Positions 18,550 through 43,626 of a stretch of DNA of 64,000 nucleotides are shown here, one piece after another. Below the pieces are notes generated by a model that saw only the letters and a list, made by a program, of their open reading frames with translations, had not been told where the DNA came from and ran no database searches. This DNA comes from Vulcanimicrobiota bacterium (lineage in GTDB: Bacteria; Vulcanimicrobiota; Vulcanimicrobiia; Vulcanimicrobiales; Vulcanimicrobiaceae). The stretch covers positions 14,985 through 78,984 of the forward strand of contig PLTN01000165.1 in the NCBI GenBank assembly GCA_003164495.1, written 5' to 3'. The position numbers were made by a program, and so were the translations under genes. Position 1 is the stretch's first letter. Every line of letters starts with the position of its first letter.

Positions 18550-19381
18550 GCCTCGTCAATTGCCGGCCGAGCAACGTTCGCCCGACGTCACGGAGATAGG
18601 CGTTGGACGTAAGGTGATCGCACACGCCGGACGGCAATCCTTCGAACAACCGCGCCGCCAGCGCCTCGATGTCACCCGTGAGGTCGTCGCAGGTTCCCTC
18701 GAGCACGTAGGGTGCCATCGCCTCGGTGCCCAGGGCGACCCGCAACTGCAACCCTTTACCGCTGCGCCTCACCGCGAGTGCCTGCGTTATGATCGGCCGC
18801 ATGCCGCGCTCGTAATCGAATGCGCAAAGGTCGGCGAGCGGAATCTCCACGTGCGTCAATAGTTCGCGCGGCGCACCCTCTCGTTGGAGGTAAGACTGTA
18901 CGTTCCACAACCGTGACGCGTTGCCGTCGCGAACGCGAATCTGCGCGCCGAGTGCGGCTAGCAGCACCGGCATCTCGTAGCGCGTCCGGCGCGCCATCAC
19001 GTTGCCCCCGATCGTTGCCGTGAAGCGCACGCGGACGTTCGCGATGCGCGCCCACGCCGAAGCGAAGCTCGGCACGGCACGGCGAACCGTGTCGCTTTGC
19101 GACCCTCGCGCATGTGTAACGAGTGCGCCGATGCGCAGTACCTCGCCGTCGTCCTCGATAGCACTCAGTTCGCCGACGTCCGCGAGCGCCAGCACACGGC
19201 GCGGATTGAAGCCTTCATTGAAGCGCGCAACCATGTCGGTCCCGCCCGCCAGGATTGCCGGTGGGACCTGGTGCTGCATCAACGCCGCGACCGCGTCGTC
19301 AAGCGAGCGTGGCCGGATGACGGCGACGTCGCCGATGGTACGAAACGATGTAGAGATCAGACCGCCGTCGGTGCGTTTCAT
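18530..19381 (-). CDS. FAD-binding subunit of Mo-hydroxylase
   Basis: 283 residues of the CoxM/XdhB family. AILAGGTDMVARFNEG (FAD pyrophosphate loop, about 42-57), ATIGGNVMARRTRYEMPVLL (second FAD loop, about 120) and a C-terminal CoxM helical domain. It accepts electrons from the 2Fe-2S subunit. Its ATG is 12 nt after the UbiD stop. It completes the three-subunit enzyme encoded in the order FAD, FeS, Mo. Confidence 0.92.
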   Translation of the reverse strand: MKRTDGGLISTSFRTIGDVAVIRPRSLDDAVAALMQHQVPPAILAGGTDMVARFNEGFNPRRVLALADVGELSAIEDDGEVLRIGALVTHARGSQSDTVRRAVPSFASAWARIANVRVRFTATIGGNVMARRTRYEMPVLLAALGAQIRVRDGNASRLWNVQSYLQREGAPRELLTHVEIPLADLCAFDYERGMRPIITQALAVRRSGKGLQLRVALGTEAMAPYVLEGTCDDLTGDIEALAARLFEGLPSGVCDHLTSNAYLRDVGRTLLGRQLTRLARGGL

Positions 19382-19393
19382 CGGCGATCGGTA

Positions 19394-25075: not shown

Positions 25076-26610
25076 GACGTCGGCCGCGCGTTGGAGTCGT
25101 TGCAGGTCGGGAATAGCGATCGGCCGAGCAGCGGCACGCCCTGATCGCGCGTCATCTGCCGAACGTTGACTGCCGGCTCGTACGTTGTCGCGAGACCCGT
25201 ATAAAGCCGCGCAGCGAAGGAATCGCCCCACACAAAGATGCTCCGCTCGCCCGAACGGCGCGGACGATAGCATTCCGCCGCGTAGGCGCTCGCGGGGACC
25301 AGTTCCGGCAGTGAACACGTCAGCGCGCGCGTTTCCGCTTTGTAGTCCTCGTTCACGACGACATAGCGGCGCAGCGGTTGCGGGATCCGCGCCGGAAAGC
25401 CGACAGCCCGGTTGTCGATCGACCCGACCGCCGCGACGGCGAGTAGTGCCGCCGCGAGACGGGGTACCCAGCGTTCGGGATGCGCCCCGAAACGAATCGG
25501 CCGTTCCACGAAAACGTACGTGACCTGGGCGAGCGCGAGCGCCGCTGCCACCGCAGCGATCCGTGCCGCAACGGAACTCTCGCCGAACGTCCCGATCGCG
25601 AGAAACGACAGCAACGGCCAGTGCCAAAGGTAGAGTGGGTAGCTGATCTTGCCGAGCCAAACCATCGGCTTCACGCCAAGCAAAGCCCGGGCAGGCCACG
25701 TCCCGGCGGCCGTTGCCATGAGGCCCGCTGTCGCGAGCGTCGGCAGCAGATTCCACCACGGCGGGCTCGAGCCGTCGGGCTGCAAGGCGATGGGGACCGC
25801 GACAGAAGCGACGATGATGACGAGACATCCGGCGGCGAGGGTCGAGGCCGTTCGCCCCGTGCGTCGCGTCGCACGCGTTCCGAGCGCGCACACCGCAGCG
25901 CCGAGCATCAGCTCCCAAAAGCGCGTGAACGGCAGATAGAACGCGGCGTTCGGTGAGTAGAAATCGACGATCACGACGTCGGCGGCAAACGATGCGACGG
26001 CAATGCCCAGGATGATCGGCACCATGCGCGCTCGCACCGCTGCCGCCCACATCATCACGAATGGCCAGACAAGGTAGAACTGTTCCTCGACGCTGAGCGA
26101 CCATAAGTGGAGCAGGGGCTTCGTCTGCGCAAACCGATCGAAGTAGACTGACTGCAGTACGAACTGGACGTTGGCGAAGAATAGCGCGCCGCCGGTTATG
26201 TTGGCACCAAGGAGCCGGTACTCGAGCGGCAACAGCATGAACCAGCCGGCGACGAACGATGCCGTAAGGACCAGCAGCAGCGCGGGTACGATCCGCCGGA
26301 TGCGGCGCGCATAGAACGCCGTAACGCGAAATATCCCCGCAGCAATCGCGTCCTGGATCAAGCCGGTAATCAGGTAGCCGGAGATGACGAAGAATATGTC
26401 GACGCCAAGAAAGCCGCCGGGCAGCAGGTTCGGAAACGCGTGAAACACGACGACCGCCGTAACGGCGATTGCGCGGAGCCCATCGATGTCGGCCCGATAA
26501 GGTCGCGCCGGGGCATCGCTCAGGGTACGATCAGCTATTGTGCTATGACCCGGTAGAAAGCATGTCGCGCGCCGAGAACGTCTTGGGGATGATCTTGTAC
26601 TTCGCGGCAA
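25030..26610 (-). CDS. OafA-type acyltransferase with truncated SGNH domain
   Basis: Membrane acyltransferase-3 domain with about ten transmembrane helices: YRADIDGLRAIAVTAVVVFH, FLGVDIFFVISGYLI, HLWSLSVEEQFYLVWPF, SYPLYLWHWPLLSF. These enzymes O-acetylate cell-surface sugars. An SGNH esterase-like domain begins (IFVWGDSFAARLYTGL) but ends after about 60 residues: beyond CNDSNA the frame becomes unrelated Arg/Ser-rich sequence, whereas intact SGNH domains run over 200 residues. The start is uncertain: ATG 26610 lies inside SBP4, and no ATG/GTG/TTG occurs closer to the domain. Probably damaged at both ends. Confidence 0.7.
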   Translation of the reverse strand: MPRSTRSSPRRSRRATCFLPGHSTIADRTLSDAPARPYRADIDGLRAIAVTAVVVFHAFPNLLPGGFLGVDIFFVISGYLITGLIQDAIAAGIFRVTAFYARRIRRIVPALLLVLTASFVAGWFMLLPLEYRLLGANITGGALFFANVQFVLQSVYFDRFAQTKPLLHLWSLSVEEQFYLVWPFVMMWAAAVRARMVPIILGIAVASFAADVVIVDFYSPNAAFYLPFTRFWELMLGAAVCALGTRATRRTGRTASTLAAGCLVIIVASVAVPIALQPDGSSPPWWNLLPTLATAGLMATAAGTWPARALLGVKPMVWLGKISYPLYLWHWPLLSFLAIGTFGESSVAARIAAVAAALALAQVTYVFVERPIRFGAHPERWVPRLAAALLAVAAVGSIDNRAVGFPARIPQPLRRYVVVNEDYKAETRALTCSLPELVPASAYAAECYRPRRSGERSIFVWGDSFAARLYTGLATTYEPAVNVRQMTRDQGVPLLGRSLFPTCNDSNARPTSAISRSRLRSTSCRS

Positions 26611-27505
26611 CGTCGATCACCGGCTGAATCTGCGAGGGGTCAAACGACAGCGCCGTTGATGTTTTGTGCATGATCGCGGCTGCATGCGCATCCATGCCGG
26701 AAAATGCGACCATCAAGGGTAGCGTTTCGGGAATGTGGGTGTTTGCGTATGCCGACGCTTGCGTCATTACTTTGGCGAAACGAGTCATTGCATCGCGATT
26801 CTTTGCGACGTAGTCGCGAGTTGCAAAAAATGCCGATTCGAGGATCGGTTTGGGCCCGTAGCCGTTGAGCATGTCGGTCAGCATCCGAAACTTGCCCGTT
26901 CCGAGGTCCTTCGACATATAGGGCTCGTTCGTCACGCCGGCATCGACGCGGCCTTGTTCGAGCGTCGACCCGAGCGTCGTCGTCGGAAGCTCGATGAAGC
27001 GCACCGTCGACGAGTCGCCGCCCAGCTCGTCGATCATCGCGCGAAGGCCGAGATATCCGATGTCACCGATAGCGGTGCATGCGACGACTTTGCCCTGCAG
27101 GTCCAGTGCCGATTTGAACGGCGAATTGGCCAAGACCATCACGCCGTCGTTCGCGTCGTCCTTTTGATGGATCGCCGACGGCGCGATCATCACGAACGGA
27201 ACCCCGCGCGCGTAGGCAGCGATGAGTGACACGAGGCTCGACTTCCCGACATCCATCGCGCCGGCGATGACCGACTGAGCGACGACGGCGCCGCTGGTCG
27301 CTCGGGTAATCTCGACGTCCAGCCCGGCCTTTTTAAAGAGACCGGCGCTCTGCGCGTAGAGAACGGGTCGCAGATCGTCTGAGGGGGACGAGATGAAACG
27401 AATCGTCGTAACGTCGGCCGGCGTCTGCGCCGGCGAGTTCCCGATCGCTGCTAGGAGCAGTACGGCTAGGGTCGCTGATGTGCGCAGTGCTTGAATCATT
27501 CTCAC
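26543..27505 (-). CDS. NMT1/THI5-like periplasmic substrate-binding protein (SBP4)
   Basis: 320 residues. Signal peptide TSATLAVLLLAAIGNSPAQ, core SPSDDLRPVLYAQSAGLFKK, AGLDVEITRATSGAV, AMDVGKSSLVSLIAAYARG and end helix IQPVIDVAAKYKIIPKTF. It belongs to the SBP2/SBP6 subgroup. It is followed by the damaged acyltransferase gene and preceded by GNAT/VOC debris, so its original pathway neighbours may have been lost. Confidence 0.87.
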   Translation of the reverse strand: MRMIQALRTSATLAVLLLAAIGNSPAQTPADVTTIRFISSPSDDLRPVLYAQSAGLFKKAGLDVEITRATSGAVVAQSVIAGAMDVGKSSLVSLIAAYARGVPFVMIAPSAIHQKDDANDGVMVLANSPFKSALDLQGKVVACTAIGDIGYLGLRAMIDELGGDSSTVRFIELPTTTLGSTLEQGRVDAGVTNEPYMSKDLGTGKFRMLTDMLNGYGPKPILESAFFATRDYVAKNRDAMTRFAKVMTQASAYANTHIPETLPLMVAFSGMDAHAAAIMHKTSTALSFDPSQIQPVIDVAAKYKIIPKTFSARDMLSTGS

Positions 27506-27770: not shown

Positions 27771-27908
27771 TGCGACGATTATGACGCCCTCCTTGTGAAA
27801 CTGGCCGAACACAAAATCGCCGTTCTACCGGATCCGCTTCCGTTCGAAGGCTGGCCGCACTGCTACATATCCGATCCATTCGGCAATCGGATCGAGATTA
27901 TTGGTTAA
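27771..27908 (+). pseudogene. glyoxalase/VOC-superfamily C-terminal fragment
   Basis: Immediately after the GNAT fragment, in another frame, the sequence reads DYDALLVKLAEHKIAVLPDP and GWPHCYISDPFGNRIEIIG followed by TAA. This is the final beta-alpha-beta-beta-beta unit of a VOC-fold protein (DPxGNxIEI signature). No start or N-terminal half is present. It overlaps the SBP5 stop by 4 bp, end to end. Confidence 0.7.
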
Positions 27909-28837
27909 TGCTTCCAGACGAGTTCGGCGACGGTCATCGGGCGGCTGATGAACTTGTACTTGTACGCGTCGTCGAGGATCGGTTGCATCGGCGCGTAGTC
28001 GAAGGTCGGGGCGTAGAACGTTTTGCCGAGATCGACGGGGCGTCCGAGGTTCTTCGTGACGATCGCCGTGGCTTGCGCGCGATTGCTCACGTCGTTTGCC
28101 CAGCGCGCAGTGGCCCCCATGACGTCGGCGTAGGCTTTTGCGGCGGCCTGATTCTGGGCAATCCAATCGGTCGTCGCAAACCAGCCGGTCGAGATGATGC
28201 GCGGGCCGATCGCTTCCACCGGGTTGGCCAGCAGGCGCACTTGGGACGCCCAGAGCGTCAAGAACGGATCGACCATCAACGTCGCTGCGACGGTTCCGCG
28301 CTGCAATGCCGCGAGCATCTCGGGCGGCGTAACCTCGACCAGTTGGACGCGCTTCGAATCGGCGCCGTTCTTGTCGAGCCAGACCTTGACGCTCATCGCG
28401 AGGATGCCTTGGATGCTCAGCACCCCCACGGTCTTGCCTTCAAGATCCTTTGCACTGTGGATCGGGCTGTCGCTCGCGACCGTCAGTCCCGTATTTGCCG
28501 CGCTGGCCACGGACACGATCGACGGCGCGACGAGCGTTACCGGAACGCCGTGGTCGCGCGCCTGTGCGACGGTGACGACGTTGCCGCACGCGAAATCGAG
28601 CGAATGCCCGATCAGCGCCGCGGCCGCTGCCGAGCCGTTCGGAAAGAGCTGCGCATTAACGTCGAGGCCCGCCTTCGCAAACAGTCCGATCTCTTGGGCA
28701 AACCAGGCTTCGTAGCCATCGTCGCTGCTAACGCCGGCATGGAGCGCCATAGCGGCTCCTCCGCGTGCAGACAACGCGGCCAGCAGCGCCGTGCCGCCGA
28801 AACCCGCAACAAACGAACGACGTGAGAAAGCGCTCAT
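27905..28837 (-). CDS. NMT1/THI5-like periplasmic substrate-binding protein (SBP5)
   Basis: 310 residues from ATG 28837; the track start at 29356 runs antisense through the SDR gene. The N-terminus SRRSFVAGFGGTALLAALSA is Tat-like (SRRSF). Core: AWFAQEIGLFAKAGLDVNAQ, SLDFACGNVVTVAQARDHG, SAKDLEGKTVGVLSIQG and end helix MQPILDDAYKYKFISRPM. It is divergent from an SDR gene 85 bp away, with which it may share a regulator. Confidence 0.87.
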   Translation of the reverse strand: MSAFSRRSFVAGFGGTALLAALSARGGAAMALHAGVSSDDGYEAWFAQEIGLFAKAGLDVNAQLFPNGSAAAAALIGHSLDFACGNVVTVAQARDHGVPVTLVAPSIVSVASAANTGLTVASDSPIHSAKDLEGKTVGVLSIQGILAMSVKVWLDKNGADSKRVQLVEVTPPEMLAALQRGTVAATLMVDPFLTLWASQVRLLANPVEAIGPRIISTGWFATTDWIAQNQAAAKAYADVMGATARWANDVSNRAQATAIVTKNLGRPVDLGKTFYAPTFDYAPMQPILDDAYKYKFISRPMTVAELVWKH

Positions 28838-28921
28838 GGGCACCTCGCTTTTGCGCCGGGATGGATTAGAGGGGTTCCACTTCCGACGAGGCGAGTTACC
28901 GACCTGTAGGAGGCGATCAAA

Positions 28922-29767
28922 ATGCACGACCAGCTGACGCCAGAAACCGGATTGAAAGGGCGCGTTGCCGTTGTCACGGGTGCCGTCAGCGGCATGGGCC
29001 GCGTCATTGCCCTCGAGCTCGCACGGCGCGGGGCCAAACTCGCGGCGGTCGACGTCGACGCGGCGCGGCTCGAACGCCTCAAAGAAGAAATCGGCGCGAA
29101 TGAGGCTACGTTTCTTGCTCTCCCGACCGACATTTCGCACGCCGATGATTGCCGCCGCGCGGTCGAACGTACGGTCGCGGCCTTTGGTGGTCTCGCGATC
29201 CTCGTCAACTGCGCCGGTGTCTCCATGGATCCGGCGATCCCCGCCGGAAAACAACATCCGGTGAAGTTTTGGGAAACCGACCCCGCCGGCTGGGAACGGA
29301 TTCAGGCGATCAACAGCGCGGGTCCGTACTACATGACGCGGTTCGCCGTCGAACACATGTTGGCCAACGGCTGGGGACGGATCATCAACGTCACCACGAG
29401 CTTCGATACGATGCTCGCGCGCGGTATGAGCGCATACGGCGCGTCTAAGGCTGCACTGGAAGCCGGAAGCGCCGTCTGGGCCAAGGAACTCGACGGGAGC
29501 GGTGTTTCCGTCAACGTCGTCGTCCCGGGTGGAATGACCAACACGCCATTTCTGCCGGAAGAATTCCGCAGCCCATCGATCCTCCAGCCTGAGATCATGG
29601 CGCCCGTCGTCGCGTGGCTCGCTTCACCGGAGTCGAATGGGGTCAACGGCCGTCGCTTCATTGCGAAGTTTTGGGACGCATCAATCAACTCGACCGAGGC
29701 CGCAGCGAAATGCAGCGCACCGATCGCGTGGGAGGGCGAAGCCGTGATCGCGGGCCGATCGAAGTAA
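28922..29767 (+). CDS. short-chain dehydrogenase/reductase
   Basis: 281 residues with a strong GGAGG ribosome site 9 nt upstream of the ATG. Rossmann glycine motif TGAVSGMG (about residue 20), NCAGVS in place of NNAG (about 97), YGASK catalytic Tyr/Lys (about 172) and a C-terminal substrate loop (NTPFLPEEF). DVDAARLE after beta-2 suggests NAD(H) preference. It oxidises or reduces an alcohol/ketone of unknown identity. It is divergent from SBP5 and convergent with the cupin gene. Confidence 0.9.
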   Translation: MHDQLTPETGLKGRVAVVTGAVSGMGRVIALELARRGAKLAAVDVDAARLERLKEEIGANEATFLALPTDISHADDCRRAVERTVAAFGGLAILVNCAGVSMDPAIPAGKQHPVKFWETDPAGWERIQAINSAGPYYMTRFAVEHMLANGWGRIINVTTSFDTMLARGMSAYGASKAALEAGSAVWAKELDGSGVSVNVVVPGGMTNTPFLPEEFRSPSILQPEIMAPVVAWLASPESNGVNGRRFIAKFWDASINSTEAAAKCSAPIAWEGEAVIAGRSK

Positions 29768-29771: not shown

Positions 29772-30176
29772 TTAGCTCTTGCCTGACTCGTATTGTTCGT
29801 CCGTGACCTTTTCGAGCCAGTCGACGTTCCGTCCATCGAGGCTTTCCTGGATCGCGATGTGCGTCATCGCGGTGGTCGGAGCTGCGCCGTGCCAATGTTT
29901 CTCGGCCGGTGCGATCATCACGATATCGCCGGGGCGGATTTCTTCGATCGGTCCGCCCCAGCGCTGGACTCGCCCGCAACCGAACGTCACGATGAGCGTT
30001 TGGCCCAGCGGATGCGTATGCCAATCCGATCGAGCACAGGGCTCGAAGGTGACGATGCCGGCAGACGTGCGTGCCGGATCGGCCATCTGAAATTGGGGAT
30101 CGATGCGCACGGTTCCGGTAAAGTGCTCTGCCGGTGCTTTAGCGGAGGATTGTGAACCAGCTCGTTTGATTTCCAT
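29772..30176 (-). CDS. single-domain cupin protein
   Basis: 134 residues. One cupin barrel with motif 1 [20 protein letters not shown] (about 53-72) and motif 2 [16 protein letters not shown] (about 97-112), retaining His ligands for a metal. Such small cupins resemble those annotated as (R)-mandelonitrile-lyase-like or carboxymuconolactone-associated. It lies 8 nt downstream of an SDR gene, so they form a two-gene operon; the reaction is unknown. Confidence 0.78.
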
Positions 30177-31123: not shown

Positions 31124-31885
31124 GTGACGACGTTCGAGGCCGGTCAACTTCAGGATCTTCGTCAGCGTTTGGCTGACGCGTGCTGCGTACTGGGCGTGCT
31201 CGGTCTTGCGAGCGGGAACACGGGGCATCTCAGCGTGCGGGTCCCCGATTCCGACAACCTGCTGATCCGCGCGCGCGGCCCGGCCGAGGCCGGGGTGCGC
31301 TATACGACCGTCGACGAAATTCTCGAGGTGACGCCCGACGGCGAGATCGCGAGCGGCGCGAAAGAGGGCCTGTATCCGCCCCAGGAAGTGTTTATCCACA
31401 CCGAGGTGTACCGCGCCCGCAACGACGTCGTTTCCGTGGTGCACGTGCATCCGCCGACGGTCGTGCTGTTCACGGTCACCGGCGTTCCGCTGCTCCCGAT
31501 CTTCGGCGCCTACGATCCCTCGGCGCTCAAGCTGATGCTCGAAGGCATCCCGACCTACGAGCGCAGCGTGCTCATCTCGAACCCGCAGCTCGGCCACGAT
31601 CTCGCCGCGACGCTCGGCGCGAAGCACGTGTGCATGATGCGCGGCCACGGCATCACCGCGACCGGGACGACGATCGAAGAAGCCGCCCTGCGTGCCATCT
31701 CGCTCAACGAATTGGCCGAGATGAACTATCGCGCACGGCTCCTCGGCGATCCGCAGCCGATCTCCGACGAGGACATCGCGACCTTCAATCGCGCCCTCGG
31801 CGAACCCGGAAAGCCGATCAGCGCCAACCGCACCGAAGCGATGTGGCGCTACTACCTGCGTTCCACGGGGATCGCCGGCGGCTAG
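31124..31885 (+). CDS. class II aldolase/adducin-family protein
   Basis: 253 residues from GTG 31124 (VTTFEAGQLQDLRQRLADAC); TTG 31085 in the track is also in frame. Zn site HVHPPT (about 110), active-site GLYPPQEVFIHTEVYRAR (about 90), RGHGITATGTTIEEAALRAI with the third His (about 185) and the usual N-terminal GNTGHLSVR. This family includes fuculose/ribulose phosphate aldolases and aromatic-pathway decarboxylases. First gene of a four-gene operon with a decarboxylase-like protein, a monooxygenase and a ring-cleaving VOC enzyme, so aldol cleavage or decarboxylation of an aromatic-pathway intermediate is likely. Confidence 0.88.
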   Translation: MTTFEAGQLQDLRQRLADACCVLGVLGLASGNTGHLSVRVPDSDNLLIRARGPAEAGVRYTTVDEILEVTPDGEIASGAKEGLYPPQEVFIHTEVYRARNDVVSVVHVHPPTVVLFTVTGVPLLPIFGAYDPSALKLMLEGIPTYERSVLISNPQLGHDLAATLGAKHVCMMRGHGITATGTTIEEAALRAISLNELAEMNYRARLLGDPQPISDEDIATFNRALGEPGKPISANRTEAMWRYYLRSTGIAGG

Positions 31886-31886
31886 A

Positions 31887-32819
31887 TTGATACGGGTCGC
31901 CTGCCGCCGGCACGACTGGAGTAACGCGCTCTTCGACGGCCGCGTCATCGTGCCGGACGTCGAATTCGTCCCCGACGCCCACCTCGGGCTCGAAGCGCTG
32001 CTCGACGAGCCGGCGGCCGTCGACTTCATGGAATGCGGGCTGGTCAATTATTACTGGGCGCGCAGTCAGGGTGCGCCGGTGATCGCGCTGCCGGTGTTTC
32101 TGCGCGCCGCGTTTCGTCATTCGTATATCTTCGTCAACGACGCCGTACGCGTCGATCATCCGCGCGATCTCGAAGGCAAGCGGGTGGGAACGCGTTACGG
32201 CATGACCGCCAACGTGTGGGCGCGGGCGCTGCTCCAGCATCAGTACGGCGTGCAGCTCGAAAAAATCCGCTGGCTGAACAAAGAAACGCGGACCCCGGCG
32301 CCCTACGCGTTACCGCCGGGGATGGTGTTGGAAGCCGCCGGCACGGACGCCGACTTGCCCGCGCTGCTGGCCGCCGGAGCGATCGATGCGCTCGTGCATC
32401 CCGACGTAGTCCCCACGCGGCTCTTCGCTCACGGCAACATCAAGCGGCTCTTCTCGAACGCACCGGCCGAAGAACGCGCTTACTATCGCGCGACCGGAAT
32501 CGTTCCGGTGATGAACGTGATCGTGCTTCGCGAACGCGATCTGCGCGAGCGGCTCGATGTCGTGCGCGCGGTCTTCGAGGCGTTTTGCCGCGCGAAGAGC
32601 ATCGGGCTCGCGGCCATGGAAGACGTGCGCGACTCGGGCCTATTGTGGTACTACGAATCGCTCGAAGCGCAGCTCGCGCTGATCGGCCCCGATCCCGCCC
32701 CGTACGCGCTGGACAAGATGACGCCGGCGCTCACCGCATTCGTGAGCTACGGGCTCGAACAGGGCGTCTTCACGAAGCCCCTTGCGCTCGATGAGCTGTT
32801 CTGGGAAGAGCGCGCGTGA
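31887..32819 (+). CDS. 4,5-dihydroxyphthalate-decarboxylase-like protein (cytoplasmic periplasmic-binding-fold)
   Basis: 310 residues from TTG 31887, 1 nt after the aldolase stop. No signal peptide. Segments DGRVIVPDVEFVPDAHLGLE, FMECGLVNYY, LPVFLRAAFRHSYIFVND, DLEGKRVGTRYGMTANVWAR and KPLALDELFWEE match the Pht5 type, a binding-protein-like fold used as a decarboxylase. It overlaps the monooxygenase gene by 4 bp. It probably acts on an aromatic dicarboxylic or hydroxy acid, but binding-only homologues exist. Confidence 0.78.
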   Translation: MIRVACRRHDWSNALFDGRVIVPDVEFVPDAHLGLEALLDEPAAVDFMECGLVNYYWARSQGAPVIALPVFLRAAFRHSYIFVNDAVRVDHPRDLEGKRVGTRYGMTANVWARALLQHQYGVQLEKIRWLNKETRTPAPYALPPGMVLEAAGTDADLPALLAAGAIDALVHPDVVPTRLFAHGNIKRLFSNAPAEERAYYRATGIVPVMNVIVLRERDLRERLDVVRAVFEAFCRAKSIGLAAMEDVRDSGLLWYYESLEAQLALIGPDPAPYALDKMTPALTAFVSYGLEQGVFTKPLALDELFWEERA

Positions 32820-34465
32820 TGCACGGAGATGCACCGCACGTCGCGATCGTCGGCGGCGGACCGGTCGGCTTGGCGACGGCGATCGAACTCGGGTTACGCG
32901 GAATCAGCTGCGTCGTGCTCGAGCAGGGCGACGGGCAAGTCGGCAATGCGAAGTTCGTCGACATCAACATGCGCACGATGGAGTTCTGCCGGCGCTGGGG
33001 CATTGCCGATGAAGTGCGCGATCGCGGCTTCAATCCCGACTACGCGCAAGACCTGATCTACGTCACCACGCTCACCGGCTATCTGCTCGGCCGCCAGCCG
33101 TTTCCCGCGTTTTCGCAGTTCCGCACGCCGCCGACGACGCCCGAACGCATCGCACGTTGTCCGCAAACGATCTTCGATCCGATCCTGCGCCGCACGGCCG
33201 AAGCGTTGCCGGCGGTGCGCTTGCGCTACCAAACGCGCTGCGAGCGCGTGAGCCAAGACGGCGACGGCGTGACGCTGACGCTCGTCGATACGGCGACCGG
33301 CAAACGCGAAGAACTGCGGGCCGGCTACGTGGCGTGCTGCGAGGGCGCGAATTCGAGCATTCGCGAGACGCTGGGCATCGGACTCGATGGCGCCGGCACG
33401 CTCTCGCTCAACGCGAACGTGGTGTTCTTCAGCGAAGAGTTCTTGCGCGTGCACGATAAGGGACCCGGGTTCTATACGGCAATCGGGCCCGAAGGGCGCT
33501 GGGCGAGCGTGCTAGCGATCGACGGCGGTACGCTGTGGCGATTGCAGCTGACCAAGCCGTTCGAAACGACGGTCTTCCCGAAAGCCGATGCGGAGGCGTG
33601 GGTGCGGCGCTTCATGGGACGCGACTTCGCCTTCGAGGTGCGCTCGGCGATCGTGTGGTCGCGGCGCGAAGTCGTTGCCGCCAGCTACCGGTCCGGGCGC
33701 GTGTTCTTGCTCGGCGACGCGGCGCATCAGCTCTCACCGACCGGCGGCTTCGGTCTCAACACCGGCATCGGCGACGTGACGAATCTCGCCTGGAAGCTCG
33801 CCGCGGTGATCGACGGCTGGGGCGGCCCGGAACTCTTGCCGTCGTATGAAGCGGAGCGCAAGCCGATCGGAACGCAGAACGTTGCGGCCGCGACCGGGCG
33901 CTGGCAGCACAATGAAGCTGTCGGCGGCACGCCGGGTCCGGCAATCTTGGAGAGCGGCGCCGAGGGCGACCGCGTGCGCGCGGACGTCAGCGCGGCGCTG
34001 CAGCGCATCCTCGATCGCGCCAACTGCGGCTACGACTACGGACCGCGCTACGAGGACGCGGGCATGCAGCTCGGCTACTCCTACGAGAACTCACCCGTGA
34101 TCGTGCCCGACGGAACCCCGCCGCCGCTGAACGATCACCGCACGTACTACCCGATCGCGCGGCCCGGCATCCGGGCCCCGCACTTTTGGCTCGACGAGCG
34201 CACGTCGATCCTCGACCTCTTCGGCACGGGTTTCGTGCTGCTGCGCTTGAGCCGCCACGCGCCCGCAGCCGATGTCTTTGTTGCCGCAGCGGCGAAGCGC
34301 GGTGTACCATTGACGGTGCACTCGTTCGACATCCCGCAGCTCTTCCACATCTATAACCGGCAACTCGTGCTGGTGCGGCCCGACGGACATGTGGCCTGGC
34401 GCTCGGACGAGCTGCCCACCGATGCGCAACACGTGCTCGACGTCGTTCGCGGAAGCGCCGCATAA
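32816..34465 (+). CDS. FAD-dependent aromatic monooxygenase (PheA/TfdB type)
   Basis: 549 residues. N-terminal FAD motif VGGGPVGLATAIELGLRG (about 9-26), a DG-like segment GYVACCEGANSSIRETLG (about 168), the second FAD motif GDAAHQLSPTGGFGLNTGIG (about 300) and a C-terminal thioredoxin-like dimerisation domain (from about 445), as in phenol hydroxylases. Uses NAD(P)H and O2 to hydroxylate a phenolic ring, making a catechol for the extradiol-type enzyme encoded 10 nt downstream. Start ATG overlaps the previous stop (ATGA). Confidence 0.92.
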   Translation: MMHGDAPHVAIVGGGPVGLATAIELGLRGISCVVLEQGDGQVGNAKFVDINMRTMEFCRRWGIADEVRDRGFNPDYAQDLIYVTTLTGYLLGRQPFPAFSQFRTPPTTPERIARCPQTIFDPILRRTAEALPAVRLRYQTRCERVSQDGDGVTLTLVDTATGKREELRAGYVACCEGANSSIRETLGIGLDGAGTLSLNANVVFFSEEFLRVHDKGPGFYTAIGPEGRWASVLAIDGGTLWRLQLTKPFETTVFPKADAEAWVRRFMGRDFAFEVRSAIVWSRREVVAASYRSGRVFLLGDAAHQLSPTGGFGLNTGIGDVTNLAWKLAAVIDGWGGPELLPSYEAERKPIGTQNVAAATGRWQHNEAVGGTPGPAILESGAEGDRVRADVSAALQRILDRANCGYDYGPRYEDAGMQLGYSYENSPVIVPDGTPPPLNDHRTYYPIARPGIRAPHFWLDERTSILDLFGTGFVLLRLSRHAPAADVFVAAAAKRGVPLTVHSFDIPQLFHIYNRQLVLVRPDGHVAWRSDELPTDAQHVLDVVRGSAA

Positions 34466-34475
34466 GGAAAAGCTC

Positions 34476-35411
34476 ATGGATTTCACGATCAGACGTGCCG
34501 GACACGTGGTGCTTCGCGTCACCGACCTGCCGCGCGCGAAACAATTTCTCGAAGACGTGGTCGGTTTCCAGACCTACGGCCAAGAGGGTTCGTTCTATTT
34601 CCTCACCGCGAACCCGGTGAGCAACCACCACATGATCGCGGTGCGCAGCGGAAAGAGCGGCGAACGCCTGCCCGATCCGCGCCAAATCGGCATGGTCAGC
34701 ATCTCCTACGAAGTGAACACCTTCGACGAACTGCGGCGCATCTATCAGCGCATCAAAGAACAAGGGCCGGCCTTCGGTGCAACGCTGCTGCGCAGCGAAG
34801 ACTTCGGCTCGATCACCAACTTCGTTGCCGCCGATCACGACGGTAACCAGCTCGAATTCTACTGCCGCCGCCGCGCTGACGATCAAACCGACCTCGACGC
34901 GCCTGTGGCCGCCGAGGATCCGAAGCGCTTACCGAACCTGCGCTCCGGCATCCGTCGCACCAGCCACCTGACCTTGCGGTGCACGGATCTCGCCGCGTCG
35001 CAAGCGTTCTATCGCGAGATGCTGCACCTGGTTCCGATTGCCGAAGCGAACGGCCGCGTATATCTCGCGAGCGCGCCGGATGCCCAGCCCGTCCTCGCGC
35101 TCGAACAATCGTCCGACGCCGATGCGCCCTTGCCGACCCCAAAGAAGATGTACGGCATGGAGCACTTCTCCATGGAACTCGCGTCGTTTGCGGACCTGCA
35201 AAATGCGTACCGTCATCTGAAGGGCAACGGCGTCGACGTGCACCACACGATGGATCACGGCGTGACCAACAGCGTCTACCTCATCGACCCCGACGGCAAC
35301 CTCATCGAGATCTATCACGACGTGCCGCGCGCCGAGTATGCGAATCCCGATAACCCGTTCGGCTCGTTCGGGTCGCTCGACGATCGTCTCGACGGCGCGC
35401 CTGCGCTTTAG
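34476..35411 (+). CDS. extradiol catechol dioxygenase-like VOC protein
   Basis: 311 residues from ATG 34476; the track start is 29 codons early, within the previous gene. Two VOC modules: residues 1-135 (GHVVLRVTDLPRAKQFLEDV; DHDGNQLEFY) and 155-300 (SHLTLRCTDLAASQAFYREM; GMEHFSMELAS; DPDGNLIEIYHDV). The C-terminal module keeps His, His and Glu for Fe(II) as in type I extradiol dioxygenases. It probably cleaves the catechol formed by the upstream monooxygenase. Last gene of the operon; 4 bp convergent overlap with SBP6. Confidence 0.87.
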   Translation: MDFTIRRAGHVVLRVTDLPRAKQFLEDVVGFQTYGQEGSFYFLTANPVSNHHMIAVRSGKSGERLPDPRQIGMVSISYEVNTFDELRRIYQRIKEQGPAFGATLLRSEDFGSITNFVAADHDGNQLEFYCRRRADDQTDLDAPVAAEDPKRLPNLRSGIRRTSHLTLRCTDLAASQAFYREMLHLVPIAEANGRVYLASAPDAQPVLALEQSSDADAPLPTPKKMYGMEHFSMELASFADLQNAYRHLKGNGVDVHHTMDHGVTNSVYLIDPDGNLIEIYHDVPRAEYANPDNPFGSFGSLDDRLDGAPAL

Positions 35412-36355
35412 GCCAGGCGGGCGATGAAATCGCGCGCTTCAAAGCGCGCTTCGATGACCTTGTATTTCGCGGCGACATCGATCAACGGCTGAATCAGTCC
35501 GGGATCGAGCGAGGTCGCGAACTCCGTGCGCGACATGGCGGCGATGGTGACCGGATCCATCTTGGTGAACGATGCCAGCAGCTCGACGGTTTGTGCCTGA
35601 TGCGTGTTGCAGTAGGCCGACGCCGCTTGCATCACTTGCGCGAACGAGCGCACTACGGCCGCGTTCTTCCCGAGATAATCGGCGGTCGAAAACCACGCCG
35701 ACTGCATCAAGCGGGTTCCGATCGACGAGAGATGGTAGCCGAGCACGCGCACGGTGCCGCCCTTGAGGGCTTGCGCCAGATAGGGATTTTGCAGCGTTCC
35801 GGCTACAACGTGCCCGCTGGCAAGTTCGGCGACGACGGCCGATCCCGGCATCTCGATGTACTGCACGAGTTTCGAATTGGCGCCGTTGGCGTCGATCCAG
35901 TTGCGCAAGCTGAGGTTGTCGAGGTCGCCGAGCGCGGGGCACGAGATGGTCTTGCCTTCGAGATCCTTCGCCGTGCGCAGCGGTGACTTCGCCGGCACGA
36001 CCAGCGCTGAATCCGGAGCGCTGCCGAGATAGAGTCCCGACGGCGCGACCAGCATGAAACCGATCCCTTTTCCGCGGGCCGCGATCAGGGGCAACATGCT
36101 CGAGCGCCCGATGTCGACGGCACCCCCGGCAACCGCCGAGCTGATCGCCGACCCGCTGTTCAACGTGCTGAGCGTTACGTCGAGGCCGGCTTTGCGAAAG
36201 GCGTCTTGCTGGATCGCGTAGAGCGCGGCCGTCACATCGTCGTTGGCCGTCGACGCGAGCCGGACCGGCGTGAGCGCCGGCGTGGTTTGCGCCAGGCCTC
36301 GTCCCGCCGTCGCGGCGACGAAGGCCCCAGTCAGCAATGCCTGCTTGCGGTTCAT
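35408..36355 (-). CDS. NMT1/THI5-like periplasmic substrate-binding protein (SBP6)
   Basis: 315 residues from ATG 36355, which overlaps the amidohydrolase stop (ATGA); the track ORF 35408-36799 is over-extended. Signal peptide QALLTGAFVAATAGRGLAQ, core TANDDVTAALYAIQQDAFRK, AGLDVTLSTLNSGSAI, AVDIGRSSMLPLIAARGKG and end helix IQPLIDVAAKYKVIEARF. Same subgroup as SBP2 and SBP4. Last gene of the seven-gene minus operon that contains the CDC48-like ATPase. Confidence 0.88.
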   Translation of the reverse strand: MNRKQALLTGAFVAATAGRGLAQTTPALTPVRLASTANDDVTAALYAIQQDAFRKAGLDVTLSTLNSGSAISSAVAGGAVDIGRSSMLPLIAARGKGIGFMLVAPSGLYLGSAPDSALVVPAKSPLRTAKDLEGKTISCPALGDLDNLSLRNWIDANGANSKLVQYIEMPGSAVVAELASGHVVAGTLQNPYLAQALKGGTVRVLGYHLSSIGTRLMQSAWFSTADYLGKNAAVVRSFAQVMQAASAYCNTHQAQTVELLASFTKMDPVTIAAMSRTEFATSLDPGLIQPLIDVAAKYKVIEARFEARDFIARLA

Positions 36356-37281
36356 GCGGCGAAGAGCTTGCGCGCGTTTCCGCTTTGGATCGCGATCACG
36401 TCGTGCTCCGGGAGACCGGCCATTTCCAGGTAGTGCACCGCTTGAGCATACGAATCGTCCGTCCAGTACGGGTAGTCCGAACCGAACATGATACGGTCGA
36501 TACCGAACGCATCGACGGCATGGGCCAGCGAACGCGGTTCGCCGTTGGCGGTGTCGTACCAGAACTTTCGCATCTGCACGCTCGGCAGTTCTTCGCCCGC
36601 TACGCTGCGGATGCCGCCCCGGTCGAGACGATAGCGCAGGAACGGCAGCATGCCGCCGAGATGCGGCAAGATGATCTTCAGTTGCGGATAGCGGCGCGGA
36701 AATCCGGCCTGCATCAACTGCATCGCGCACACGGCGTCTTCCACCGGTGCACCCAGCGGCCAGGTGAGCCGGCTCTCGGCAATCAGCGGCGACTCGCACG
36801 CGAAGCCCGGCGGATGGATGAACACCACCGCGGCACGCCGGTTCAGCTCGACGAAGACCGGCTCGAACGCAGGGTCGGCGAGCGAGCGCGCGTTGACGCT
36901 GGTCGTAAACGTCACGCCGTCGGCGTGCAGTTCGTCGACCGCGCGCCGCAGCTCCGTCAGCGCGGCGTCGACGTGCGGCATCGGCAGCGCGGCGAAGAAG
37001 CCGAAGCGCGCGGGATATTTGCGGCGCAGCTCCGCGTGTTCATCGTTGATGAACTGGGCCGCGCGGACCGCATCGCGTTCGTTCTCGAGGTAGGGCGTCG
37101 CCGCCGACATCGAGAGCATCTGGCGCGCAACGTTGCTGTCGTCCATGACGGCCAGCCGCTCGGCCACGCCGGCGTCCGCCGCCGGCGAGACGACCCGCCG
37201 CGCATCGAAAAGAATCCGCCTATCGCAGCCGAGCTGCTCCAGCAGATCGATGTACGTGCCGCTGAAGTGATGCACGTGCAC
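36352..37281 (-). CDS. amidohydrolase-family (ACMSD-like) metal-dependent decarboxylase/hydrolase
   Basis: 309 residues from GTG 37281. The HxHH metal motif is at the very N-terminus (MHVHHF), with VFIHPPGF (about 165), KIILPHLGG (about 212) and MFGSDYPYW with the metal Asp (about 267). This matches the ACMSD/gamma-resorcylate-decarboxylase branch, which decarboxylates aromatic acids or ring-cleavage products using Zn or Mn. The frame upstream reads LIDVHVHHF, so the usual first residues exist but have no standard start codon before the GTG. Overlaps SBP6 by 4 bp. Confidence 0.85.
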   Translation of the reverse strand: MHVHHFSGTYIDLLEQLGCDRRILFDARRVVSPAADAGVAERLAVMDDSNVARQMLSMSAATPYLENERDAVRAAQFINDEHAELRRKYPARFGFFAALPMPHVDAALTELRRAVDELHADGVTFTTSVNARSLADPAFEPVFVELNRRAAVVFIHPPGFACESPLIAESRLTWPLGAPVEDAVCAMQLMQAGFPRRYPQLKIILPHLGGMLPFLRYRLDRGGIRSVAGEELPSVQMRKFWYDTANGEPRSLAHAVDAFGIDRIMFGSDYPYWTDDSYAQAVHYLEMAGLPEHDVIAIQSGNARKLFAA

Positions 37282-37323: not shown

Positions 37324-38283
37324 CTAGGTGAAGATCTTGGTGCGAAGATCGACGGGTGTCGTGAGGAGGCCGGTTTGCGTCATGAGCGCAGTTAGGCGCG
37401 GCAAGTCGCTCGGCACGACGTCGGCATGGGCCGGGATCGGCTTCATCTGCGCGACGAGCTCGGGTGTAATACCGCTGAAGCCGGCGACGAGTTTGATGAA
37501 GGGCTCCTTGCCGGCGTTGGCGTTGCACCACGCGGCGCCGCGCTTGTATGCACGCACGAACGCGCGTATATCGTTGCCGCGTCGCGCTGCGAGTTCCGGC
37601 GTAATGGCGAAGAATCCGACCGGCCCGTTCGGGTAGACGCGGCTCAAGGCCCAGTCGAGCAACTCGATCGCGGGATCGGCTAAGCCCACCGTCATGAACG
37701 GATCGAGCACCAGCGCCGCGTCGACGCGCTTCGCCTTGAGCGCATCGACCATCGACGGCAGCGGAACCTCGATGATTTGCACCTTGTCGGGATCGCCGCC
37801 GGTCGCTTTGACCCACGCCGTCACGAACATCCACTGCACGTCGCGCAGCGCGTTCACGCCGACGACCTTGCCCTCGAGATCCTTGCCCGTCTTCAGCGGC
37901 TCGCCTTTGCGCTTGAGCAGCGCGCCGGGATCCGGCGGATGCGCGCCGATCGGGGCACCCTCGAGGATAATCCGCAGATCGATGCCCTTCGTAATCGCCT
38001 GAACGATGCTCGTTCCGTTGGCGTAGATCATATCGTAGGAGCCGCCGACGACCGCCGGAATACCGGCCGCGCCGCCGCGCACGATGAACGGGCTGCACGC
38101 CAGGTTTTCCGCCGTGAAGTAACCCTGCTGGTCGGCAGCATAGTACGGCGCAACATCCCAGATCGGAACCAGGGCAACGCGCAGCGGAATCGCGTCGGCG
38201 CGTGCGGCGCGCGGCAACGCACTGCCGGCGAGCGCGGCCGCCATGGTAGCGAGACTTCCGCGGCGCGAAATGCGTGAGGTCAT
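37324..38283 (-). CDS. NMT1/THI5-like periplasmic substrate-binding protein (SBP7)
   Basis: 319 residues from ATG 38283, overlapping the AAA stop (ATGA). Tat-like N-terminus (SRISRRGSLATMAAALAGSA). Core VALVPIWDVAPYYAADQQGY, FTAENLACSPFIVRGGAAG and YDMIYANGTSIVQAITKG; ends VDLRTKIFT. It is a close partner of SBP8 (same VDPxMTVG, KATGGDPDKV and DLRTKxF segments), which is divergently encoded at the head of the operon. Confidence 0.88.
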   Translation of the reverse strand: MTSRISRRGSLATMAAALAGSALPRAARADAIPLRVALVPIWDVAPYYAADQQGYFTAENLACSPFIVRGGAAGIPAVVGGSYDMIYANGTSIVQAITKGIDLRIILEGAPIGAHPPDPGALLKRKGEPLKTGKDLEGKVVGVNALRDVQWMFVTAWVKATGGDPDKVQIIEVPLPSMVDALKAKRVDAALVLDPFMTVGLADPAIELLDWALSRVYPNGPVGFFAITPELAARRGNDIRAFVRAYKRGAAWCNANAGKEPFIKLVAGFSGITPELVAQMKPIPAHADVVPSDLPRLTALMTQTGLLTTPVDLRTKIFT

Positions 38284-40415
38284 GTTGGCTCCTTCACGGT
38301 ATCGATAGCTTTGAGTAGATCCACAGTGGTCGTTGCGACCGCGCCCGCATAGCCGGTGCGCCGGAGGGCGAGGCGTTTGGCGCGCGCGCACAGTTCGCGC
38401 AGTTGCGCGCCCGAAAAGCCTTCGGTGAGCGGCACCAGTTCGTCGATGGACGCGTCGACGTTCGCACCGGCGAGAAACAGCTTCAGGATCGCGCGGCGTC
38501 CGGCCGCATCGGGGAGCGGCACGTGCACGTGCGTTCCGAACCGTCCCGGACGCAAGATGGCCGGATCGACGAGGTCGATGCGGTTGGTTGCGGCCAGCAC
38601 GACGATGCCCGAGAGCGGTTCGATGCCGTCGAGTTCCGCGAGCAATTGGTTGACGACACGTTCGGTCGTCATCGAACCGCTATGATCGCCCCGAATCGGC
38701 GTGATCGAATCGAGCTGGTCGAAGAAGATCACGGCCGGCGCAACTTGGCGCGCGATCCGGAAGATGTGCCGCACGGCTTCTTCCGATTCGCCGAGCCACT
38801 TGGTGAACAGCTCCGGCCCGTTGACGGCGATGAAGTTCACGCCGCATTCGTTGGCGACGGCTTGCGCGAGCAGAGTCTTTCCGGTGCCCGGTGCGCCGTA
38901 GAGCAGCACGCCGGAATGTGCGGCAAGCCCCATCTCGGCCAGCACGTCCGGTTTGTGCAGCGGCATCTCGACGAGTTCGCGCAGCTCTTCGCGCAGCGCA
39001 TCCATTCCCCCGACGTCGGCCCACGTGACGTCGGGACGCGAGATCAGCGTTTCACGCAAGGCCGACGGCCGCACGTGCGCGAGCGCGTGCTCGAAGTCGG
39101 AGCGCGAGACCGTGATCTGCTCGGATTGCAGACGAAACGCCGCGCGGTGATCGGCCAGCATCGAGGTGTTGCGGCGCAGCGCGGAGAGGCCCGCCTCGCG
39201 GCAGAGCTCCATCAAGTCGGCGCCGACGAAGCCGTGCGTGCGGTACGCGACATCGTCGAGCGCGGCCAGCGCGTCGGGCGCCAGCGGCATCTCGCGCGTG
39301 TGGATATCCAGCACTTCACGCCGTCCGGCGATATCGGGCGGCCCGATGAAAATCTCGCGATCGAAGCGGCCCGGCCGGCGAAACGCGGGATCGACGCTGT
39401 CGAGCCGGTTCGTCGTCGCTACGACGACCACGGCATCGACGCGCGTCAAGCCGTCCATCAACGAGAGCAATTGCGTGACGACACGGATATCGGCGTGCGC
39501 GCCCGTTTCGCCGCGCTTGGGTGCGATCGCATCGAGCTCGTCGATGAAGATGATCGACGGTGCGTGGTGTCCGGCCTCGCCGAAGATCCGCCGCAGGTTG
39601 CCTTCGGTCTCGCCGGCGTAGGTGCCGATGATGTCGGGGCCGTTGATGTAGTAGAACCGCGCCTCGACCTCGTTCGCGATCGCGCGCGCCATGCGCGTCT
39701 TGCCGGCGCCCGGCGGACCGTAGAGGATGATGCCGCGCGGCGCGGTGATGCCGAGCTGCTGGTAGACGTGCGGAAACTTGAGCGGCAACTGCACCAGCTC
39801 GCGCACCGCGCGGATCTGCGTGCCCAGTCCGCCCACGTCTTCGAACGTGACGTCCATCGCGCCGTCGGGCACGTGCGCATCGGCGTACTGCAGCACGATC
39901 TGCGTGTCGGGCGTGACGTAGCCGGGGCCGTCGTCGACCGTCACGACTTGATAGGTCGTCCCCGAGGTCGTGCCAGGGAAAGGCAGATACAGCACCGCAT
40001 CGCGGCTCACGGCCGTGCGGTCGGCGCTCAGCAGTGCGGTCAGGTGCGGAACGAGATCGTGCGCGGTCGAGACGTCGGCCGCCGGCAGCAGCTCCACGCG
40101 CTTCGCCGGCCGGAGCTCGATCGGCTCGATCTCCACCGATTCGTTGAGCCGCGCCTTGAGTGCTTGGCGCAGAAAGCGATCCATGCGCGCGGTATCGCCC
40201 GCTCCGTCGGCGGCGGCCGGATCGAGCCGCGCGACCGCGCTGCGCCCGCGCTCGGTCGCAACGCGTACCGTGTCGCCGGCCGACAAGCCGAGCTGTTGCA
40301 TCAGCGCCGCATCGAGCTGGATGCGTTGCCGTGCGCCCGCCGTTGCCGCGCCCGCGAGGTTGTCGACGGTGGCGTGCACGTGCGGGATGCCGGAGTGCGT
40401 GTGCGCGTGCGTCAA
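38280..40415 (-). CDS. CDC48/p97-like double AAA+ ATPase with Gln in the D2 Walker B
   Basis: 711 residues. N-terminal CDC48-type barrel domain (residues about 25-190: RIQLDAALMQQLGLSAGDTV), then two AAA modules. D1: GPPGAGKTRMAR (about 235), IIFIDELDAIAP (about 290), RRPGRFDREI arginine fingers. D2: GAPGTGKTLLAQ (about 507), VIFFDQLDSI, LRPGRFGTHV. Gln567 (codon CAG) replaces the Walker B Glu; in AAA proteins this change normally allows ATP binding but blocks hydrolysis. CDC48 homologues unfold or extract proteins. It is embedded in a catabolic operon: 4 nt from the cupin stop and overlapping SBP7 by 4 bp, so it is probably co-translated with them. The role there is unknown. Confidence 0.92.
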   Translation of the reverse strand: MTHAHTHSGIPHVHATVDNLAGAATAGARQRIQLDAALMQQLGLSAGDTVRVATERGRSAVARLDPAAADGAGDTARMDRFLRQALKARLNESVEIEPIELRPAKRVELLPAADVSTAHDLVPHLTALLSADRTAVSRDAVLYLPFPGTTSGTTYQVVTVDDGPGYVTPDTQIVLQYADAHVPDGAMDVTFEDVGGLGTQIRAVRELVQLPLKFPHVYQQLGITAPRGIILYGPPGAGKTRMARAIANEVEARFYYINGPDIIGTYAGETEGNLRRIFGEAGHHAPSIIFIDELDAIAPKRGETGAHADIRVVTQLLSLMDGLTRVDAVVVVATTNRLDSVDPAFRRPGRFDREIFIGPPDIAGRREVLDIHTREMPLAPDALAALDDVAYRTHGFVGADLMELCREAGLSALRRNTSMLADHRAAFRLQSEQITVSRSDFEHALAHVRPSALRETLISRPDVTWADVGGMDALREELRELVEMPLHKPDVLAEMGLAAHSGVLLYGAPGTGKTLLAQAVANECGVNFIAVNGPELFTKWLGESEEAVRHIFRIARQVAPAVIFFDQLDSITPIRGDHSGSMTTERVVNQLLAELDGIEPLSGIVVLAATNRIDLVDPAILRPGRFGTHVHVPLPDAAGRRAILKLFLAGANVDASIDELVPLTEGFSGAQLRELCARAKRLALRRTGYAGAVATTTVDLLKAIDTVKEPT

Positions 40416-42292: not shown

Positions 42293-43252
42293 ATGCCGCT
42301 TCATGTCAGCCGGCGAAACGCGCTGCTCGGCGCAAGCGCAACGCTCGCCGCGTTGTCGGTTCCCGCGCCGGTACTGGCCGAGCCGGCGCTGCTGCACGTT
42401 TCGACGGTCGCGATCTTCGACGTCGCGAAATATTACGCGGCCGACGCGCAAGGCTACTTCGCCGCCGAAAACCTGGCGGTGACGACCGAACCCGTGCAGA
42501 GCGGCGCGGCGGGGGTTCCGGCGCTCATGAACGGCCAGTTCGACGTGCTCTACAACAACGTTGCATCGACGATTTCCGCAATCGATCGCGGCTTCGACTT
42601 GCGCGTCGTCATGGGCGGCAGCCCGAACGGCTCGAAGCCGCCCGGTCAGTCGGCCCTGATGAAGCGGCGCGGCGACGCCATTCGCAGCGGCAAGGATCTC
42701 GAAGGCAAAACCGTCGGCGTCAACGGCGTTCGCGGCATCAATTGGGTGCTCACGCGCTCGTGGGTCAAGCTAACCGGCGGCGATCCCGAGAAAGTCAGCT
42801 TTCTCGAACTCCCTAACTCCGTGCTGATCGATTCGATCAAAGCCAAGCGTATCGATGCCGCATACGTGGTCGATCCGTACATGACCGTCGGCCGCACCGA
42901 TCCCGACATCGAAGGCTTCGGCTGGCCGCAGAGTTCCGTCTATCGCGGGGGCGTCAACGGGCTGTGGGTCGTGACGCGGGCGAGCACCGATCAGCGGCCC
43001 GACGTGATCCGTGCGTTCGTGCGCGCGTTGATCCGCGGCGCGGGCTGGGTCAACGCCAACCTCGGCAACGACAGCTACTTCAAACTGGTTTCCGGCTTCA
43101 CCAAGATCGACCCGGCGATCGCAGCGAAGATGGTGCTCGAACCGGCCAGCACGTCGATCTCGGCAACGCAAATTCAGCCGATGGTAAAATTGATGCGCGA
43201 CAACGGTCTGATCGCCGGAGATATCGATCTTCGCACGAAGATGTTCGTCTGA
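42293..43252 (+). CDS. NMT1/THI5-like periplasmic substrate-binding protein (SBP8)
   Basis: 319 residues. Tat-like N-terminus (VSRRNALLGASATLAALSVP). Core VSTVAIFDVAKYYAADAQGY, FAAENLAVTTEPVQSG, FDVLYNNVASTISAIDRG; ends IDLRTKMFV. Nearest window relative is SBP7. Its stop overlaps the DUF35 gene start (TGATG), so the two are co-translated. It is the only NMT1-type binding protein here directly coupled to an acyl-CoA-handling gene on the same strand. Confidence 0.88.
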   Translation: MPLHVSRRNALLGASATLAALSVPAPVLAEPALLHVSTVAIFDVAKYYAADAQGYFAAENLAVTTEPVQSGAAGVPALMNGQFDVLYNNVASTISAIDRGFDLRVVMGGSPNGSKPPGQSALMKRRGDAIRSGKDLEGKTVGVNGVRGINWVLTRSWVKLTGGDPEKVSFLELPNSVLIDSIKAKRIDAAYVVDPYMTVGRTDPDIEGFGWPQSSVYRGGVNGLWVVTRASTDQRPDVIRAFVRALIRGAGWVNANLGNDSYFKLVSGFTKIDPAIAAKMVLEPASTSISATQIQPMVKLMRDNGLIAGDIDLRTKMFV

Positions 43253-43626
43253 TGTTCGCACCCCTGTGGGATGGAACCGCACGCAAGGAACTGCTCCTGC
43301 AGCGTTGCAGCGCATGCGGGGCGTTCCGCCATCCGCCCAGTCCGATCTGCCGGAGCTGCTTGAGCGATCAGCATGAATGGGTCGCGGCGAGCGGCCGCGG
43401 TACGGTGTACACCTACGCCGTCGTGCGTCAGGCACTCGGGCGGGGCTGGGAAGAGAAGGTACCCTACGTCGTCGCCGTGATCGAGCTCGACGAAGGGCCG
43501 CGTTTTCTCACCAACGTCGTCAACGTCGACCCGGACGCAGTGCAGATCGGCATGCCGGTCGAGGTCGTCTATCTCGAACGCGCCGACGCGGCAACGTTGC
43601 CGCTCTTCCAACCGCGGAGCGCTTAA
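43252..43626 (+). CDS. Zn-ribbon/OB-fold DUF35 protein
   Basis: 124 residues. Rubredoxin-like Zn ribbon RCSACGAFRHPPSPICRSC (about 19-37), then an OB fold (GRGTVYTYAVVRQALG; VVAVIELDEGPRFLTNVV). DUF35 proteins partner thiolase-like enzymes, as in the steroid aldolase Ltp2-ChsH2 or acetone/acetoacetyl systems. A thiolase-like gene without the nucleophilic Cys lies at 46.9-48.1 kb in the convergent operon, the obvious candidate partner. The track shows this region only in a wrong frame (42964-43626). Confidence 0.87.
   Translation: MFAPLWDGTARKELLLQRCSACGAFRHPPSPICRSCLSDQHEWVAASGRGTVYTYAVVRQALGRGWEEKVPYVVAVIELDEGPRFLTNVVNVDPDAVQIGMPVEVVYLERADAATLPLFQPRSA

Follow-up and report, generated by a model that had tools for sequence, protein, structure and literature searches.

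We propose that four genes at positions 31124–35411 of a 64,000-nucleotide stretch of DNA from a Vulcanimicrobiota bacterium (hereafter the window) make up a meta-cleavage module linked to decarboxylation. Its substrate would be an aromatic carboxylate or dicarboxylate bearing a hydroxyl group, in the manner of hydroxyphthalate, hydroxyisophthalate or salicylate; we assign this reading a probability of roughly one half. The strongest evidence for a single catabolic theme is the repeated assembly of the same gene families, with exchangeable oxygenases, at other loci.

Organization of the operon and its facing gene set

The four genes lie head to tail on the same strand, separated by intergenic gaps of +1, −4 and +10 nt, and converge with a facing set (38391–35411) that encodes a solute-binding protein (SBP), an Amidohydro_2 protein and a second SBP. 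The features are as follows:

31124–31885, plus strand: gene 1 (ALD), class II aldolase/adducin fold, putative PhtC-type decarboxylase (NCBIfam NF053537; conserved E101, H120, H122 and H188, numbered from a TTG start at 31085)
31887–32819, plus strand: gene 2 (PHT5-like), highly diverged 4,5-dihydroxyphthalate-decarboxylase fold with Asn210 (matches 9jp7 by sequence and fold)
32816–34465, plus strand: gene 3 (FMO), class A FAD-dependent aromatic monooxygenase (FAD_binding_3 and Rng_hyd_C; PRK06126)
34476–35411, plus strand: gene 4 (VOC), two-domain type I extradiol-dioxygenase-like protein (metal triad and PS00082-like motif; HpaD and catechol 2,3-dioxygenase models best, below cut-off)
35411–36361 (up to 36799), minus strand: NMT1/THI5-type SBP of the facing set (Pfam NMT1)
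36352–37281, minus strand: amidohydrolase resembling ACMSD, OpaD and 5-carboxyvanillate decarboxylase (PDB matches; HxH...H...H...D metal site)
37324–38391, minus strand: second NMT1/THI5-type SBP of the facing set (Pfam NMT1)

That these are four overlapping or adjacent genes, as the original prediction held, is confirmed by their coordinates, by a strong third-position GC bias of the coding type in every one of them (0.79–0.85) and by clear family assignments in Pfam and the PDB: class II aldolase/adducin, NMT1-like/4,5-dihydroxyphthalate-decarboxylase fold, FAD_binding_3 with Rng_hyd_C, and two glyoxalase/dioxygenase domains. The 1-nt and −4-nt spacings suggest translational coupling. Gene 1 has an alternative TTG start at 31085; the GTG at 31124 is preferred because the orthologue in a sister species of the same genus begins at the matching residue, with its N-terminus MSTFEPG... 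aligning with VTTFEAG.... A promoter and terminator scan identified no regulator or promoter, and Rfam and tRNA scans returned no match. Pfam and curated models likewise detected no hydrolase, hydratase, isomerase or dehydrogenase of the normal meta pathway in the operon or the facing set, in agreement with the earlier claim that the usual hydrolase and isomerase steps are missing. A complete meta-cleavage pathway—with hydrolase or dehydrogenase, hydratase and aldolase beside the dioxygenase—is thus not encoded by these two gene sets.

The nearest PDB matches of the facing amidohydrolase are 5-carboxyvanillate decarboxylase (LigW) and ACMSD, and its metal site comprises HVH at residues 2–4 together with HP, PHLGG and GSD motifs; these matches support the ACMSD-like decarboxylase predicted for the convergent set. 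Its frame opens at a GTG directly before the HxH motif and the upstream in-frame codons read ...LIDVHVHH, so that translation possibly begins slightly upstream, at a codon other than ATG, unless a sequence error is involved. We also observed seven NMT1/THI5-type SBP genes in the window (14788–15750, 26543–27505, 27905–29356, 42293–43252 and 43623–44567, plus the two of the facing set), with no cognate permease or ATPase noticed beside them.

Assignment of the four proteins

Pfam identifies gene 1 as class II aldolase/adducin and nothing more specific, and the original prediction gave it an aldol-cleavage step. This assignment does not hold. Gene 1 passes the NCBIfam equivalog model NF053537 for PhtC, a 3,4-dihydroxyphthalate decarboxylase, at 215.1 bits against a cut-off of 200, and it stays below about 80 bits against the other class II aldolase (sugar aldolase) models, whose cut-offs range from 137 to 400; these scores speak against a lower-pathway or sugar aldolase. 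The sister-species orthologue scores 224 bits against the PhtC model, and class II aldolases of comparable clusters elsewhere reach 56–115 bits, short of the cut-off. Moreover, all four metal and catalytic residues (E101, H120, H122 and H188) are shared with PhtC of the Arthrobacter keyseri pht operon, to which gene 1 is 36% identical. In that operon, phtC stands last after the dioxygenase genes and a Rieske dioxygenase makes the PhtC substrate, whereas here an FMO is present without a Rieske oxygenase or a dihydrodiol dehydrogenase. Plasmid relatives of gene 1 were found in phthalate-type clusters, and the best plasmid match by E-value (Peribacillus, 38%) adjoins a ring-hydroxylating dioxygenase and a Gfo/Idh/MocA dehydrogenase. 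Meta-pathway aldolases belong to other folds (HpcH/HpaI, DmpG, RraA). There is also precedent for decarboxylation in both folds: the class II aldolase DhbB is involved in the decarboxylation of 3-carboxy-2-hydroxymuconate semialdehyde (CHMS), and the amidohydrolase OpaD decarboxylates CHMS in another strain (PMC6362003). Given the curated model, the residues and this precedent, gene 1 is best read as a decarboxylase-type enzyme of the PhtC group, and the facing amidohydrolase, too, is best read as a decarboxylase. The labels class II 'aldolase' and 'ABC substrate-binding protein' can mask aromatic decarboxylases, a common misreading that is corrected here.

The sole PDB sequence match of gene 2 was 9jp7, a 4,5-dihydroxyphthalate decarboxylase (E = 5.7e-39). 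Its AlphaFold model (pLDDT 91) aligned with 9jp7 at a TM-score of 0.88 and an E-value of 2e-28, well above SBPs, Thi5 and MqnD; since 9jp7 outscores all SBPs by fold and no signal peptide is evident, an SBP identity was rejected. The reading frame is intact. In a 106-sequence alignment that includes four Pht5 proteins from clear phthalate-type operons, gene 2 carries Asn210 where His is invariant in the 105 relatives and Ala74 where Arg is conserved in 96%, and it has lost several further near-invariant residues. Its branch in the tree, at 2.34, is by far the longest (median 0.25), and it falls as a lone branch outside the clade of phthalate-operon Pht5 proteins, its exact placement being unsure owing to branch length. 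Compared with Pht5 (9jp7 and the phthalate operons of Polaromonas, Acidovorax, Variovorax and Marinibacterium), gene 2 thus shares the fold, 32% identity and the lack of an evident signal peptide, and differs by His210Asn, Arg74Ala and other substitutions. The replacement of His210 by Asn is a strong hint at altered function, not proof of it. In the original prediction gene 2 was a 'decarboxylase-like' protein performing a decarboxylation; the fold bears this out, while the loss of the invariant His and other near-invariant residues, along with the extreme divergence, makes the activity doubtful and the least secure step of the scheme. The decarboxylase fold has probably been kept with a changed substrate or reaction, and a Pht5-fold member without the His offers a change of function that can be put to the test. 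The window encodes a further Pht5-like paralogue at 56272–57387, in a distinct, well-supported clade.

Gene 3 contains FAD_binding_3 and Rng_hyd_C domains (Pfam) with GxGxxG and GD motifs, and it scores 583 bits against PRK06126 (cut-off 445); this class A FMO family membership and these motifs are consistent with the predicted hydroxylation by a flavin monooxygenase. RebC is its best PDB match, 2,4-dichlorophenol and 2-hydroxybiphenyl monooxygenases are matched too, and the family includes biosynthetic as well as catabolic hydroxylases. Gene 3 is about 40–44% identical to the FMOs of several plasmid loci and 51% identical to an FMO copy near a PHT5 gene in genome G061.

Gene 4 consists of two VOC domains, of which the C-terminal one keeps the metal site H164/H230/E278 and the catalytic His261, and in the N-terminal one the second His is lost. 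All positions of the PS00082 pattern are matched except the first. The best curated extradiol models are HpaD and catechol 2,3-dioxygenase, with a top score of 67.8 against a cut-off of 321.4, and gene 4 stays far short of the curated cut-offs of every extradiol model, HpaD, C23O and BphC among them. We scanned 385 genomes from the class that includes G061, 149 from the bacterium's own phylum and 399 from the order to which a Ramlibacter genome (locus L148) belongs, and recovered one two-domain relative and a few single-domain ones; a DNA-pattern search of named genomes found none. The subfamily is rare. The two-domain relative, in G061 (52% and 42% identical by halves), is encoded in two frames in that draft; the same locus holds genes for a Rieske oxygenase, a class II aldolase and an RraA-like protein, and one whose product, on inspection of its sequence by eye, is an HpcH-like aldolase. 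The single-domain relatives in Burkholderiales stand in clusters not evidently devoted to meta cleavage, beside unrelated enzymes. Judged by its residues, gene 4 encodes a type I extradiol-like protein, rare and diverged, whose His-His-Glu triad is intact; this lends support to the predicted ring cleavage.

Recurrent clustering and genomic history

The window's genome, a 5.37-Mb draft with 84% completeness and 7% contamination, contains 24 PHT5-like, 20 class II aldolase and 17 FMO family matches. PHT5 and ALD genes neighbor each other within 2 kb in five pairs, against 0.5 expected under Poisson, uniform placement—an approximate figure. Several of these pairs adjoin LigXa-type Rieske oxygenases, a LigB dioxygenase, a catechol-dioxygenase-like VOC protein or an FAA hydrolase; one locus (C240) carries FMO, ALD, extradiol-like VOC, LigXa Rieske and PHT5 genes, and another (C8) carries LigB, amidohydrolase, Rieske, ALD, PHT5 and FAA hydrolase genes. 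Among 80 PHT5 loci of other genomes, even with their flanks truncated, a nearby ALD occurs in at least 17, an FMO in at least 13 and an amidohydrolase in at least 16. FMO, PHT5, ALD and amidohydrolase genes stand together in six Rhizobiales loci (Ensifer and others), with LigXa-type Rieske genes in those examined. These clusters have four families in common with the operon and its facing set; they differ in gene order and direction, in the presence of the Rieske genes and in an FMO that is only about 34% identical, and no relative of gene 4 was found beside them. The HR28 cluster (L145, contig BEIE01000001.1) has the order HpaB-VOC-PHT5-ALD-amidohydrolase-VOC, with HpaB in the place of the FMO, two extradiol-type VOC genes and branched-chain-type ABC genes. 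At two further loci (L149 and L126) PHT5 is followed by FMO, as in the window. This repeated clustering of Pht5-like, class II aldolase, FMO or Rieske, and amidohydrolase genes, both here and in other phyla, supports a functional linkage and agrees with the aromatic (di)carboxylate context originally proposed. Our literature search found no description of a PHT5-ALD-amidohydrolase set. Such a recurrent, largely unannotated module could process polycarboxylated aromatics—for example, lignin- or humus-derived acids—in uncultured bacteria.

A single contig of the sister genome carries collinear genes at 79–86% DNA identity, which argues that the window's contig is native, and composition gave no sign of recent foreign origin. 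Similarity to the sister species ends with the final base of gene 1 (31885) and picks up again at 53351; the intervening block was not found as a block in the sister genome, where the gene 1 orthologue stands without genes 2–4. This break at the gene 1 stop codon implies that genes 2–4 were gained here or lost in the sister, and because the sister keeps gene 1 without them, gene 1 may work on its own. The 385 + 149 + 399 genomes scanned yielded no orthologous four-gene operon, and the operon is young or lineage-specific.

Proposed pathway and competing explanations

In the pathway that we favor, the FMO would hydroxylate the ring to yield a catechol carboxylate. Gene 1 would decarboxylate either the dihydroxy acid before cleavage, in the manner of PhtC, or the carboxylated ring-fission product after it, in the manner of DhbB. 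Extradiol cleavage of the catechol ring would fall to gene 4, and a second decarboxylation, of the OpaD or ACMSD kind, to the facing amidohydrolase, with the facing-set SBPs possibly serving uptake. Gene 2, with its retained fold and His210-to-Asn exchange, would probably act on another substrate or in another reaction. The lower-pathway steps (hydrolase or hydratase, and a true aldolase) would be supplied by other loci: FAA-hydrolase and HpcH/HpaI genes are present in other regions of the genome, and the 'shortened' meta route of the original prediction is overstated on account of these candidates. Several aspects limit our confidence in the module, namely the distance of gene 4 from curated cut-offs, the biosynthetic members of the gene 3 family, the missing His of gene 2, the solitary gene 1 of the sister species and the lack of an identified regulator or promoter.

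One close comparison is the 2,3-dihydroxybenzoate meta pathway (dhb of P. reinekei MT1 and opa of Pseudomonas PTH10), in which a type I extradiol enzyme is followed by a DhbB or OpaD decarboxylase, as may be the case here. The dhb and opa clusters carry lower-pathway genes, whereas the present operon is devoid of these and adds an FMO and a PHT5-like gene. In the compact hcdABC operon of Pseudomonas mandelii 7HK4, an FMO of class A occurs together with a type I extradiol enzyme (PMC6222606); the FMO–extradiol pairing is alike, but the third hcd gene encodes a hydrolase and no decarboxylase-type genes are present. Flavonoid catabolism (fde/ifc) was rejected as a template: the FMO acts first in both, but no matching decarboxylase set appeared in the papers found.

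Three other explanations were weighed. A shortened yet complete meta pathway, with gene 2 decarboxylating, gene 3 hydroxylating, gene 4 cleaving the ring and gene 1 performing aldol cleavage, fits the gene order and the superfamily-level family names; it is very improbable in view of the PhtC-type scores of gene 1 set against its low sugar aldolase scores, the different folds of meta aldolases, the HpcH/HpaI genes elsewhere in the genome and the missing His of gene 2. The genes might instead modify or detoxify a phenolic metabolite, with the FMO as a tailoring hydroxylase, gene 4 as a non-cleaving glyoxalase-like VOC protein and genes 1 and 2 trimming carboxyls. The biosynthetic enzyme RebC as best FMO match would agree with this, as would the strong divergence of gene 4 and the unrelated neighbors of its single-domain relatives; we regard it as rather unlikely, since the genes that recur alongside are catabolic (Rieske LigXa, LigB, FAA hydrolase, IclR), gene 4 retains the complete extradiol triad together with the catalytic His, and the two-domain protein nearest to it is encoded among RraA-like and HpcH-like genes in a locus of the aromatic-acid type.

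Finally, the genes could be chance neighbors—an old stand-alone PhtC-type gene 1 behind which a separate PHT5-FMO-VOC cassette landed, the two acting on different substrates and gene 2 perhaps decaying. The exact end of sister synteny at the gene 1 stop codon, the orthologue lacking genes 2–4, and the extreme branch and lost conserved residues of gene 2 all speak for such a history; we nevertheless deem it unlikely, as the 1-nt and −4-nt spacings suggest coupling, ALD–PHT5 pairing recurs at other loci above chance, and gene 2 keeps an intact frame and a confidently predicted fold. The decarboxylation-linked module remains our preferred reading. A bolder extension of it, offered tentatively, has two parts. 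Gene 2 would be neofunctionalised, having gained a new reaction or substrate after His loss; and the PHT5, class II aldolase and amidohydrolase genes that recur together, combined with exchangeable enzymes for ring activation (FMO, HpaB or Rieske) and ring opening (VOC or LigB), may constitute a general module for polycarboxylated aromatics that has not been described before and that has grown in this genome to 24 copies of PHT5 and 20 of class II aldolase.

Two further observations concern other parts of the window. A cupin gene at 29772–30176, located between two SDR genes, matches the NCBIfam (R)-mandelonitrile lyase model at 192 bits (cut-off 140). At 15747–20890, molybdopterin dehydrogenase subunits adjoin a UbiD-type decarboxylase gene, possibly forming a further aromatic-acid module.
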